Source: Thysanoteuthis rhombus
Lineage: Eukaryota; Mollusca; Cephalopoda; Oegopsida; Thysanoteuthidae
NCBI GenBank assembly: GCA_963457665.1
Contig: OY735212.1
Location: forward strand, 6,538,237 to 6,602,236
Direction of reading: 5' to 3'
Length of the DNA: 64,000 nt
A program made the translations under genes and the position numbers. The first letter of the stretch is position 1, and each line of letters begins with the position of its first letter. Positions 3,670 through 39,902 of this stretch are shown here, piece by piece. Under the pieces are notes generated by a model, which saw only the letters and a list, made by a program, of their open reading frames with translations, did no database searches and was not told where the DNA came from.

Positions 3670-5060
3670 CGTGTATATATACACATATATATATGTATGT
3701 GTGTGTGTGCATCTGTATTAATGTAAATATATGTATGTGTGTGTGTGCATCTGTATTAATGTAAATATACATATGTGTGTGTGTGTGTGTGTGTGCATCT
3801 GTATTAATGTAAATATACATGTGTGTGTGTGCATCTGTATTAATGTAAATATACATATGTGTGTGTGTGCATCTGTATTTATGTATATATACATATATGT
3901 ATGTGTGTGTGCATCTGTATTTATGTATATATATATGTGTGTATGCATCTGTATTAATGTAAATATACATGTGTGTGTGTGTGCATCTGTATTAATGTAA
4001 ATATACATTTGTGTGTGTGTGCATCTGTATTAATGTAAATATACATATGTGTGTGTGTGCATCTGTATTTATGTATATATACATATATGTATGTGTGTGT
4101 GCATCTGTATTTATGTATATATATATGTGTGTATGCATCTGTATTTATGTATATATACATATTTGTGTGTGCATCTGTATTATGTATATATACATATATA
4201 TGTGTGTGCATCTGTATTTATGTATATATACATATATGTGTGTGTGTGCATCTGTATTTATGTATATATACATATACATATGTGTGTGTGCAACTGTATT
4301 TATGTATACATATACATATGTGTGTGTGCAACTGTATTTATGTATACATATACATATGTGTGTGTGCATCTGTATTTATGTATACATACATATACATAAA
4401 TGTGTGTGCATCTGTATTTATGTATGTATACATATATGTGTGTGTGCATCTGTATTTATGTATGTATACATATATGTGTGTGTGCATCTGTATTTATGCT
4501 TATATACTTGTATGTGTGTGCGCATCTGTATTTATGTATATATACTTGTGTGTGTGTGCATCTGTATTTATGTATATATACATGTGTGTGTGCATCTGTA
4601 TTTATGTATATATACATGTGTGTGTGTGCATCTGTATTTATGTATATATACGTGTGTGTGTGCATCTGTATTTATGTATATATACATGTGTGTGTGTGCA
4701 TCTGTATTTATGTATATATACATGTGTGTGTGTGCATCTGTATTTATGTATATATACATGTGTGTGTGTTTGTGCATCTGTATTTATGTATATATACGTG
4801 TGTGTGTGTGTGCATCTGTATTTATGTATATATACATGTTTGTGTGTGTGCATCTGTATTTATGTATATATACATGTGTGTGTGTGTGCATCTGTATTTA
4901 TGTATATATACATGTGTGTGTGTGCATCTGTATTTATGTATATATACGTGTGTGTGTGCATCTGTATTTATGTATATATACATGTGTGTGTGTGCATCTG
5001 TATTTATGTATGTATACATGTGTGTGTGTGCATCTGTATTTATGTATGTATATATGTGTG
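3670..5060. repeat. GT/TA-rich minisatellite, about 37-bp unit
   Basis: A unit of roughly 34-42 bases repeats across about 1.4 kb. It combines a (GT)n run, GCATCTGTATTTATGTA and a (TA)n run ending in ACATG or ACGTG. Unit length varies because the GT and TA runs change length. Early copies read GCATCTGTATTAATGTAAAT and later ones GCATCTGTATTTATGTATAT, so two variant blocks can be told apart. Several overlapping frames are open on both strands, encoding Cys/Val/Ile/Tyr or His/Thr/Tyr runs. These are artefacts of a stop-poor repeat. Confidence 0.95.
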
Positions 5061-5240
5061 TATTTATGAATGTATGCACGTATGCATGTGTGTATTTATG
5101 AATGTATGCACGTATGTATGTGTGTATTTATGAATGTATCCACATATGTATGTGTGTATTTATGAATGTATCCACATATGTATGTGTGTATTTATGAATG
5201 TATCCACATATGCATGTGTGTATTTATGCATGTATTTACA
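5055..5240. repeat. 32-bp minisatellite block
   Basis: Directly after the previous array the unit changes to about 32 bases, built from GTGTGTATTTATGAATGTAT followed by CCACATATGTAT or GCACGTATGTAT. There are roughly five copies. It shares the GTGTGTATTTATG core with its neighbour, so it probably arose from the same array and then expanded separately. Confidence 0.85.
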
Positions 5241-5310
5241 TACGTATGCATGCATTCGTGCGTGTGTTATGTGTATGCATTTGTGTGTTCGTCCGTTTCC
5301 ATGCGTGTGT

Positions 5311-23195: not shown

Positions 23196-24050
23196 AAAAT
23201 TGCAACGGGGTGAGTGCAGTGGAGATTGCAACGGGGGTGAGTGTAGTGAAGATTGCAACGGGGGTGAGTGTAGTGAAGATTGCAACGGGGGTGAGTGTAG
23301 TGGAGATTGCAACGGGGGTGAGTGTAGTGGAGATTGCAACGGGGGTGAGTGTAGTGGAGATTGCAACGGGGGTGAGTGTAGTGGAGATTGCAACGGGGGT
23401 GAGTGTAGTGGAGATTGCAACGGGGGTGAGTGTAGTGGAGATTGCAACGGGGGTGAGTGTAGTGGAGATTGCAACGGGGGTGAGTGTAGTGGAGATTGCA
23501 ACGGGGGTGAGTGTAGTGAAGATTGCAACGGGGGTGAGTGTAGTGGAGATTGCAACGGGGGTGAGTGTAGTGAAGATTGCAACGGGGGTGAGTGTAGTGG
23601 AGATTGCAACGGGGCGAGTGTAGTGGAGAATGCAACGGGACGAGTGTAGTGGAGAATGCAACGGGACGAGTGTAGTGGAGATTGCAACGGGACGAGTGTA
23701 GTGGAGATTGCAACGGGACGAGTGTAGTGGAGATTGCAACGGGACGAGTGTAGGGGAGATTGCAACGGGACGAGTGTAGGGGAGATTGCAACGGGACGAG
23801 TGTAGTGGAGATTGCAACGGGACGAGTGTAGTGGAGATTGCAACTGGACGAGTGTAGTGGAGATTGCAACTGGGCGAATGTAGTGGAGATTGCAACTGGG
23901 CGAGTGTAGTGGAGATTGCAACGGGGCGAGTGTAGCGGCGATTGCAACGGGGCGAGTGTAGCGGCGATTGCAACGGGGCGAGTGTAGCGGAGATTGCAAC
24001 GGGACGAGTGTAGCGGAGATTGCAACGGGGCGAGTGTAGCGGAGATTGCA
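23196..24050. repeat. 26/27-bp G-rich minisatellite
   Basis: About 32 copies of a unit GATTGCAACGGG...GAGTGTAGTGGA. The first half (to about 23610) has a 27-base unit with GGGGGTGAG. The second half has a 26-base unit with GGGACGAG or GGGGCGAG, including AACTGG and TAGCGG variants. The minus strand stays open in all three frames for more than 300 codons (for example 23053-24072), encoding CNLHYTHPR-like ninemers in the 27-base part and cycling through three frames in the 26-base part. I treat those frames as artefacts. Confidence 0.95.
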
Positions 24051-33644: not shown

Positions 33645-34799
33645 AGTCTCTGGCTCTTTTTCCGTCCCCTCCAGCTCTTTTCCCGTCCCCTCTAGCTCTT
33701 TTCCCGTCCCCTCTAGCTCTTTTCCCGTCCCCTCTAGCTCTTTTCCCGTCCCCTCTAGCTCTTTTCCCGTCCCTTCTCTAGCTCTTTTTCCGTCCCTTCT
33801 CTAGCTCTTTTTCCGTCCCTTCTCTAGCTCTTTTTCCGTCCCTTCTCTAGCTCTTTTTCCGTCCCCTCTCTAGCTCTTTTCCCGTCCCCTCTCTAGCTCT
33901 TTTCCCGTCCCCTCTCTAGCTCTTTTCCCGTCCCCTCTCTAGCTCTTTTCCCGTCCCCTCTCTAGCTCTTTTCCCGTCCCCTCTCTAGCTCTTTTCCCGT
34001 CCCCTCTCTAGCTCTTTTCCCGTCCCCTCTCTAGCTCTTTTCCCGTCCCCTCTCTAGCTCTTTTCCCGTCCCCTCTCTAGCTCTTTTCCCGTCCCCTCTC
34101 TAGCTCTTTTCCCGTCCCCTCTCTAGCTCTTTTCCCGTCCCCTCTCTAGCTCTTTTCCCGTCCCCTCTCTAGCTCTTTTCCCGTCCCCTCTCTAGCTCTT
34201 TTCCCGTCCCCTCTCTAGCTCTTTTCCCGTCCCCTCTCTAGCTCTTTTCCCGTCCCCTCTCTAGCTCTTTTCTGTCCCCTCTCTAGCTCTTTTCCCGTCC
34301 CCTCTCTAGCTCTTTTCCCGTCCCCTCTCTAGCTCTTTTCCCGTCCCCTCTCTAGCTCTTTTCCCGTCCCCTCTCTAGCTCTTTTCCCGTCCCCTCTCTA
34401 GCTCTTTTCCCGTCCCCTCTCTAGCTCTTTTCCCGTCCCCTCTCTAGCTCTTTTCCCGTCCCCTCTCTAGCTCTTTTCCCGTCCCCTCTCTAGCTCTTTT
34501 CCCGTCCCCTCTCTAGCTCTTTTCCCGTCCCCTCTCTAGCTCTTTTCTGTCCCCTCTCTAGCTCTTTTCCCGTCCCCTCTCTAGCTCTTTTCCCGTCCCC
34601 TCTCTAGCTCTTTTCCCGTCCCCTCTCTAGCTCTTTTCCCGTCCCCTCTCTAGCTCTTTTCCCGTCCCCTCTCTAGCTCTTTTCCCGTCCCCTCTCTAGC
34701 TCTTTTCCCGTCCCCTCTCTAGCTCTTTTCCTGTCCCCTCTCTAGCTCTTTTCCCGTCCCCTCTCTAGCTCTTTTCCCGTCCCCTCTCTAGCTCTTTCG
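33645..34799. repeat. 21/23-bp pyrimidine-rich minisatellite, about 50 copies
   Basis: The unit is CTAGCTCTTTTCCCGTCCCC plus TCT (23 bases). A 21-base form (one CT fewer) occupies the first 100 or so bases, then a TTTTTCCG...CCCTTCT variant block, then a long nearly uniform 23-base block. Shortened 22-base units (TTTTCTGTCCCC) occur near 34268 and 34543, 275 bases apart, as expected if a 12-unit block was duplicated. The plus strand is almost entirely C and T. Confidence 0.95.
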
Positions 34800-36565: not shown

Positions 36566-36577
36566 ATGAACTTATTT
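36566..36577. repeat. Left flanking 12-bp direct repeat
   Basis: ATGAACTTATTT here is repeated exactly at 37151-37162, bracketing the palindromic SINE dimer. It is a candidate target-site duplication. Confidence 0.6.
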
Positions 36578-36857
36578 TTTTTTTTTATTATTATTCGGAC
36601 CATCCTCATCTTTGTTGTTTTTTATACAACGTTTCGGCCGTTGCACTCTACGGCCTTCGTCAGGTATCATCTGGGAGATTTTTGGGAAGTAACGAACCGA
36701 ACCCTTTATTTTATCCGACGGGGGTATATCGACCGTACTCCCCTCTTTCAGCGTTAGTAGTATTGTTATACTGCCTCACACTAGGATCGAACCTAGTACC
36801 ATCAGATTACTTAACAGTAATTTGTCTGATGCTGTAACCACTGCGCTATGTGTCCAT
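36578..36857 (-). repeat. tRNA-derived SINE, left (minus) arm of palindrome
   Basis: Read on the minus strand, a tRNA-like head has a perfect A-box-like TAGCGCAGTGG (36838-36848) and a B-box-like GGTTCGATCCT. It is followed by a body with CCTGACGAAGGCCGTAGAGT and ACGGCCGAAACGTTGTATAA. The element ends in an AAT-rich, then poly(A), tail, seen as T-rich plus strand at 36575-36592. This arm includes the full head, and 255 of its bases (36587-36841) match the right arm exactly. Confidence 0.85.
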
Positions 36858-37150
36858 GTGGTTACAGCATCAGACAAATTACTGTTAAGTAATCTGATGG
36901 TACTAGGTTCGATCCTAGTGTGAGGCAGTATAACAATACTACTAACGCTGAAAGAGGGGAGTACGGTCGATATACCCCCGTCGGATAAAATAAAGGGTTC
37001 GGTTCGTTACTTCCCAAAAATCTCCCAGATGATACCTGACGAAGGCCGTAGAGTGCAACGGCCGAAACGTTGTATAAAAAACAACAAAGATGAGGATGGT
37101 CCGAATAATAATGGAAATAATAATACCTCATCTCAAAAATTCCGAGTTAT
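36858..37150 (+). repeat. tRNA-derived SINE, right (plus) arm of palindrome
   Basis: Bases 36858-37112 are the exact reverse complement of 36587-36841. The copy begins inside the A box (GTGG), so its promoter is truncated; the B box, body and AATAATAAT tail are intact. After the palindrome it continues with GGAAATAATAATACCTCATC to 37150, which has no counterpart in the left arm. The two arms are separated by only 16 bases. Confidence 0.85.
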
Positions 37151-37162
37151 ATGAACTTATTT
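37151..37162. repeat. Right flanking 12-bp direct repeat
   Basis: Exact second copy of ATGAACTTATTT found at 36566-36577. Confidence 0.6.
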
Positions 37163-39190: not shown

Positions 39191-39902
39191 TATCTATCTA
39201 TGTCTGTCTACGTCTATGTCTATCTACGTCTATGTCTGTCTACGTCTATGTCTGTCTACGTCTATGTCTGTCTACGTCTATGTCTGTCTACGTCTATGTC
39301 TGTCTACGTCTATGTCTGTCTACGTCTACGTCTGTCTACCTACGTCTATGTCTGTCTACCTACGTCTATGTCTGTCTACCTACGTCTATGTCTGTCTACC
39401 TACGTCTATGTCTGTCTACCTACGTCTATGTCTGTCTACCTACGTCTATGTCTGTCTACCTACGTCTATGTCTGTCTACCTACGTCTATGTCTGTCTACC
39501 TACGTCTATGTCTGTCTACCTACGTCTATGTCTGTCTACCTACGTCTATGTCTGTCTACCTACGTCTATGTCTGTCTACCTACGTCTATGTCTGTCTACC
39601 TACGTCTATGTCTGTCTACCTACGTCTATGTCTGTCTACCTACGTCTATGTCTGTCTACCTACGTCTATGTCTGTCTACCTACGTCTATGTCTGTCTACC
39701 TACGTCTATGTCTGTCTACCTACGTCTATGTCTGTCTACCTACGTCTATGTCTGTCTACCTACGTCTATGTCTGTCTACCTACGTCTATGTCTGTCTACC
39801 TACGTCTATGTCTGTCTACCTACGTCTATGTCTGTCTACCTACGTCTATGTCTGTCTACGTCTATCTACGTCTGCGTCGATCTACGTCTGTGTCTATCTA
39901 TA
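39191..39902. repeat. 16/20-bp minisatellite
   Basis: The first part repeats TACGTCTATGTCTGTC (16 bases, about seven copies). From about 39337 the unit gains a TACC to become TACGTCTATGTCTGTCTACC (20 bases), repeated about 25 times almost without change. It ends in degenerate TCTATCTACGTCTG units. All three plus frames are open for 228-264 codons because no frame of the unit contains a stop; I do not propose a gene. Confidence 0.95.

Follow-up and report, generated by a model that had tools for sequence, protein, structure and literature searches.

Facing terminal repeats of a Penelope-like element in Thysanoteuthis rhombus and their probable insertion by priming from both target strands

How does a perfect palindrome with arms of 255 nucleotides (nt) come to lie inside a single target-site duplication (TSD)? 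The question was raised by a locus of the cephalopod Thysanoteuthis rhombus, in a 64,000-nt stretch of assembly GCA_963457665.1 (contig OY735212.1, positions 6,538,237 to 6,602,236 of the forward strand; hereafter the window). An earlier note, made from the sequence alone, had described two facing copies of a short interspersed element (SINE) and proposed that one insertion event carried both and that a cDNA had snapped back on itself. We compared this locus with its relatives across the genome and conclude that the palindrome is probably one integration of the pseudo-long terminal repeat (pLTR) of a Penelope-like element (PLE), in which both target strands were primed separately and the two cDNAs were joined head to head.

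Anatomy of the palindrome

In a self-comparison, bases 36587-36841 and 36858-37112 were exact reverse complements over 255 nt, separated by a 16-nt loop, TGCGCTATGTGTCCAT, and a 12-bp TSD, ATGAACTTATTT, was found on both sides, enclosing the two arms (Table 1). Chance is ruled out as the source of an exact inverted repeat of this length, which lies far beyond it. By BLAST against a reference of the repeat unit, the left arm covers unit positions -3 to 283 (the last few falling in an A/T run) and the right arm positions 17 to 320 (the last few belonging to the TSD), the right arm starting within the A box (unit 10-20) of a tRNA-like head. Head sequence is private to the left arm and 38 nt of tail are private to the right one, while the junction, GTGG, can be assigned to both as a 4-nt overlap. 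Complementarity of the arms stops at the tail, and the window locus has no inverted copy of the target flank.

The geometry reported in the earlier note, including the complete head of the left arm and the start of the right arm inside the A box, was thus confirmed, and its proposal of one insertion event is supported by the single TSD around both arms. The 38 extra bases, which it had called unexplained, proved to be a recurrent PLE tail. Ten other matches in the genome were 100% identical to the window arm across the same 263 bases, so the identity of young arms is uninformative on the route by which they were copied. The family is unusual, but the window palindrome is a typical member of it.

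The repeat unit as a PLE terminal repeat

Judged from the sequence that surrounds it, the repeat unit is the pLTR of a PLE, the layout of pLTR and open reading frame (ORF) being read from partial PLE copies. At one locus (L088) the frame starts in the unit, beside an inverted unit, and remains open for 565 codons to the end of the sequence examined, running from the unit into reverse transcriptase (RT) sequence, with the tail encoding DEDGPNNNGNNNTSSQKF. At four others (L053, L065, L072, and L089) the end of the ORF is followed by a short untranslated region (UTR) with an A-run and then by a complete unit. The RVT_1 model matched the L053 ORF (P0002) with 31.0 bits (cut-off, 29.6), the only one to pass; P0001 and P0004 stayed below the cut-off (22.8 and 25.4 bits) and P0003 gave no match. 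NCBIfam RT models matched the ORF far under their cut-offs, and the similarity of the ORF start to group II intron-like RTs in the PDB was weak (E 0.013). A putative GIY-YIG endonuclease motif was seen by eye in L053 (CVYSIPC-C-EYTGET-R-L--R-EEH), with a weak echo in L096. The genome-wide Pfam search for GIY-YIG returned seven places over the cut-off (best E 6.4e-6), and the sequence at one of them (L098) had no match to the ORF of the present PLE. Separately, a facing pair at L096 (517-2022) is flanked on either side by pieces of another PLE, which is broken and has about 32 to 42% protein identity to the present one.

The 3' end of the unit is the start of the PLE ORF and not the end of a long interspersed element (LINE) partner, although no search of LINE libraries as such was made. 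The label SINE given in the earlier note is consequently half right: the tRNA-like head and the short interspersed copies stand, but the 3' end and the position of the unit, as the pLTR of a PLE, do not agree with it.

The A and B boxes of the head were seen by eye, the Rfam tRNA model reached 25.2 bits against a gathering score of 29, and ARAGORN reported no tRNA in the window. A 30-mer from the head had 1106 exact genome matches, compared with 232 for a B-box 20-mer and 242 for a 29-mer from the body of the unit, which suggests that one or more other abundant repeats share the first part of the head. The 3' part has a predicted stem, AGATGAGG/CCTCATCT, with the start of the short tail inside its loop; pairing was found in 508 of 528 cells in 66 arms, but the stem barely varies and covariation is not decisive. 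A CUGACGA-GAAAC core is similar to minimal hammerheads described for the pLTRs of PLEs (PMC7761336), but has an extra A before helix II; Rfam gave no hammerhead match for the window at gathering or for the element at E 10. At its upstream end the unit has a small palindrome, TGTCCACATGGACA. At L007 (1773-1786) two heads are fused at a small palindrome, GTGTCCACGTGGACAC.

A microRNA (miRNA) identity of the palindrome was considered and rejected. The Rfam miRNA models matched below gathering (best mir-2807, 48.6 bits against 54), as can happen with any long hairpin.

Facing pairs across the genome

We searched the 2.73-Gb assembly (514 contigs; the window lies on C15) with exact probes from the unit. 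A 24-mer from its 3' end had 1259 exact matches and the reversed control none; among the matches listed there were at least 13 pairs less than 1 kb apart, all facing (-,+) and none in another orientation. The 242 matches of the body 29-mer included, among those listed, at least 10 pairs within 600 bases, again all facing. The first 100 of the 1259 places of the 24-mer, on contigs C1 to C6, formed a sample of 87 distinct loci (L009-L097 minus the repeats L019 and L030), in which old or 3'-damaged copies are under-represented because selection was by an exact 3'-end match. Each locus was classified with a reference that included the PLE 3' UTR and the long tail.

Two facing copies were present at 65 of these 87 loci, and the search for further head-to-head dimers that the earlier note had suggested was therefore productive. 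At least nine of the remaining loci, which look single, match the PLE ORF (L011, L039, L053, L058, L061, L065, L070, L072, and L089), so that their partner may lie beyond the stretch examined. A further set, L001-L008 (L001 being the window itself), was picked by similarity to the window arm and is biased accordingly; it contains seven paired loci, six of which carry, by eye, a long tail on one arm and a short tail on the other. One arm of L004 starts internally, and L006 has a single copy in the stretch examined.

Tails, target sites, and joins

Tails were classed by the unit position that they reach, long at 295 or more and short at 272 to 290. Of the 57 pairs in which both 3' ends were readable, 55 combine a long tail with a short one (p about 2e-14 under even odds). 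The other two, L012 and L088, have two long tails, L088 being the locus with the PLE ORF start. The long tail is on the + arm in 28 pairs and on the - arm in 27.

At the outer edges of the 55 long/short pairs, TSDs with a score of 9 or more were found in 41, compared with 1.1% of 275 cross-locus controls, the commonest lengths being 12 and 13. A set of 34 exact TSDs from these pairs is 78% A or T, and the primer ends in T in 44 of 68 cases. An earlier, cruder scan on a narrower class of pairs had given a match of at least 12 in 30 of 60 pairs and one of at least 10 in none of the 27 loci then called single.

Toward the head, the short-tail arm exceeds its partner by at least 10 nt in 34 of the 55 pairs and the long-tail arm does so in 16, with 5 pairs level; both arms reach the head in only 2. 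Since in those 34 pairs, as in the window, each arm has end sequence of its own, neither arm can have been templated by the other. By BLAST ends, 26 of the 55 joins have no inserted base, 21 have 1 to 20 extra bases, and 8 have more. An overlap of at least 2 nt was present in 20 of the 26 insert-free joins, compared with 15% in a simulation with random pairs of end points. At some loci (for example L012, L013, L041, L045, L060, and L091) PLE ORF or UTR sequence separates the arms or is included in them.

Arm starts and the source of the two cDNAs

The 5' ends of 28 of 152 arms fall at unit positions -10 to +10, which amounts to 13.3 per 10 nt against 1.3 and 1.0 in the flanking bins. This cluster fits starts of RNA polymerase III (pol III) transcripts, as far as the distribution of sequence ends can tell. 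A second group (23 of the 152 arms, L009-L097) begins at 175-190, just before the PLE ATG, and may reflect the start of the PLE mRNA or a stop at folded RNA. In 18 of the 152 the arm continues upstream of the head into PLE UTR or ORF sequence, and 11 of these 18 stop only where the reference itself ends.

Both arms belong to the same subfamily in 63 of the 65 pairs, the exceptions (L021 and L038) depending on a few sites in one arm each; timing alone could explain this concordance. Private variants shared by the two arms were found in 14 young pairs at 0.0078 per site (permuted mean, 0.0041; standard deviation, 0.0014; largest of 200 permutations, 0.0084) and in 28 old pairs at 0.0067 (0.0025; 0.0011; 0.0070), with a single old pair, L081, contributing 9 of the 18 shared old variants. 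Short overlap or class left 4 young, 9 old, and 10 mixed-class pairs out of this comparison. Values above the permuted mean make a common source of the two cDNAs likely, though not proved. The pair at L018, whose arms are not equally similar to the unit, had been a candidate for two different templates and was dropped, as its alignment contains a shared private variant together with apparently later CpG changes and a deletion.

Integration route and alternatives

Arms that cannot have copied each other are evidence against snap-back and favor a separate priming event on each cut strand. Under the reading that we regard as probable, the PLE protein, perhaps as a dimer (following a published model for another PLE), would nick the two target strands about 12 to 13 bp apart, and the 3' end of each strand would prime reverse transcription of the unit RNA. 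One strand would start at a distal site and acquire the long tail; the other would start at a proximal site about 35 to 38 nt upstream and acquire the short one, GGAAAT. Each cDNA would proceed toward the 5' end of the RNA or halt early, and the two ends would then be joined head to head, often through a few nt of microhomology. Pairs with both arms at the head, which is nearly the case in the window, would represent the rare end of this distribution. The RNA template would probably often begin at the tRNA-like head, putatively read by pol III, in which case the pLTR would also behave as a SINE. That the pLTR is at once the 3' end of a PLE and a pol III-driven SINE, inserted by obligatory paired reverse transcription from a distal and a proximal site and thus dependent on Penelope and not on LINE machinery, is a wider proposal that we make tentatively, its chances being somewhat short of even.

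The snap-back or self-priming of the earlier note, in which the head end of one cDNA or antisense RNA folds back and the molecule serves as its own template, would agree with the excess of shared private variants, as well as with the small palindrome at the upstream end of the unit and the similar one at which L007 is joined. Nevertheless, a copied arm cannot extend past either end of its template, yet both arms of the window palindrome, like those of 34 of the 55 sampled pairs, contain end sequence missing from the partner. Tail ends at two different fixed positions in 55 of 57 pairs, and the lack at the window locus of an inverted flank, speak against snap-back too, so that this route, which could hold for the 16 of 55 pairs whose long-tail arm also reaches further headward, appears improbable as the origin of the palindrome. 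In L1 twin priming, both target strands also serve as primers, and the product is an inverted 5' part of one RNA. Such a route, with the second strand priming internally on the same RNA, would suit L026 (inverted 103-152 next to 153-315) and L038 (inverted 8-43 next to 46-279). The pairs described here differ in holding two copies of the same 3' part: in 57 of 65, each arm begins at one of the tail sites and the two overlap, which means that one stretch of RNA was copied twice. We consider twin priming quite improbable in general and possible as a minor route for at most 8 of the 65 pairs.

An assembly fold-back at the window locus is very unlikely, since such an error would not yield arms that end differently on both sides within one TSD, and loci with this layout number in the tens. 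Two separate insertions of a SINE, with the later one landing within or next to the earlier, could be imagined in a large genome, where nesting is common; they would hardly give a single TSD around both arms (41 of 55 pairs), joins with 20 extra bases or fewer (47 of 55), exclusively facing orientation in the close pairs listed (at least 13), or the pairing of a long with a short tail (55 of 57), and we give this explanation almost no credence.

Several observations weigh against priming from both target strands by a PLE, or limit its reach. The sample was drawn by an exact 3'-end 24-mer from contigs C1 to C6 only, and 22 of its 87 loci look single within the stretch examined. An arm reaches neither tail site in 8 of 65 pairs, no TSD with a score of 9 or more was found in 14 of 55, and the bias toward a longer short-tail arm (34 versus 16, p 0.015) is unexplained. 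The shared variants fit one source, whether that was a single RNA that served for both arms or two sibling RNAs. For the PLE ORF, neither Pfam nor PDB gave a GIY-YIG match, the endonuclease assignment being by eye only, and the single-sequence structure model of the ORF end was unusable (pLDDT 34). In the in vitro system of PMC11167929 the two strands did not differ in their start site, so those data do not explain the strict pairing of one long with one short tail; the rotifer PLEs of PMC3846280 include insertions without TSDs.

Relation to known elements

A purified PLE protein cleaves both strands and extends them, and the two adjacent internal sites on its RNA at which it starts match the genomic tail; further steps of PLE integration are said there still to need validation (PMC11167929). 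Rotifer PLEs have head-to-head pLTRs, one of which may carry a 31-bp tail, and TSDs of 8 to 10 bp; self-priming is favored for them but left undecided (PMC3846280). The present family thus resembles rotifer Pen2a (PMC3846280) in its facing pLTRs and Anolis PAc (PMC11167929) in its putative internal reverse-transcription starts, which in Anolis were seen in vitro. With Penelope/Poseidon-type insertions such as these it also shares a tail of 30 to 40 nt on one pLTR, a short TSD, AT-rich targets, and an ORF that starts in the pLTR. In contrast to PAc and Pen2a, its pLTR has a tRNA-like head, many copies are pairs of pLTRs only, and long and short tails are paired almost strictly per insertion (55 of 57).

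The unit shares with tRNA-derived SINEs (SINE2/tRNA of Repbase, PMC5753468) its short interspersed copies with TSDs, a tRNA-like head in which A and B boxes are seen by eye, and the clustering of 5' ends at that head; unlike those SINEs, it ends 3' in the start of a PLE ORF and not in a LINE tail, and is found head to head at 65 of 87 sampled loci. Animal non-LTR retrozymes, which are tied to PLEs through shared type I hammerheads (PMC7761336), are likewise short non-autonomous repeats with a hammerhead motif (here by eye). They are promoterless and have circular RNA in that source, whereas the present unit has a tRNA-like head.

Papers on the Penelope elements and SINEs present in octopus, coleoid, human, and fly genomes (PMC13282606, PMC8967140, PMC5753468, and PMC12910113) contain nothing on PLE-driven SINEs in the text examined. 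Nor did a PLE-mobilised tRNA SINE appear in the titles and abstracts listed, which is weak evidence of absence, most subscription papers being outside the search. As far as these searches go, the tRNA-like head in a pLTR, the clustering of arm 5' ends there, and the rule of one long and one short tail are new. For the integration route of PLEs, pairs with private sequence in each arm and, almost always, a long tail paired with a short one are a direct genomic test, which favors priming from both target strands. The main value of the locus lies in its family, as this test and as a possible PLE-dependent SINE; if the latter is true, a tRNA-headed pLTR would extend the range of machineries open to SINEs.

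Coordinates and other features

Table 1. Features of the palindromic locus in window coordinates
Feature	Position	Strand	Remarks
TSD, left copy ATGAACTTATTT	36566..36577	.	followed by a T run to 36586
Left arm, pLTR unit from -3	36587..36861	-	complete tRNA-like head; short tail ending at AATAATAAT
tRNA-like head of left arm	36772..36857	-	box A 36838-36848, box B 36783-36793 (boxes by eye)
Rfam tRNA match in left-arm head	36777-36852	-	25.2 bits, under the 29-bit gathering score
Head-to-head junction GTGG	36858..36861	.	4-nt overlap
Right arm, pLTR unit from 17 through long tail	36858..37150	+	
Stretch matching PLE ORF start	37029..37150	+	ATG 37029; peptide MIPDEG..DEDGPNNNGNNNTSSQKF in L088
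CTGACGA, hammerhead-like core	37036..37042	+	by eye; GAAAC at 37064; mirrored at 36657-36663 in left arm
3' stem AGATGAGG (37088-37095) / CCTCATCT (37126-37133)	37088..37133	+	predicted RNA fold; short-tail start in loop
38-nt long tail, one arm only	37113..37150	+	putative long reverse-transcription start at tail end
TSD, right copy ATGAACTTATTT	37151..37162	.	

Elsewhere in the window, a perfect 30-bp tandem array (638-884; 8.2 copies, 100% matches) stands just before a 5S-rRNA-like stretch (897-1014; Rfam 44.2 bits, gathering 38). Another array (3688-5248) has a period of about 38, with overlapping rows of 32 and 64, and those at 23199-24050, 33647-34797, and 39217-39900 have periods of about 26, 23, and 20, respectively. 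Reflectins are known from cephalopods, and a cluster of reflectin-like matches on contig C45 at 35.7 to 37.6 Mb (up to 90% identity to an approximate query fragment) points to a squid or a near relative as the probable host.
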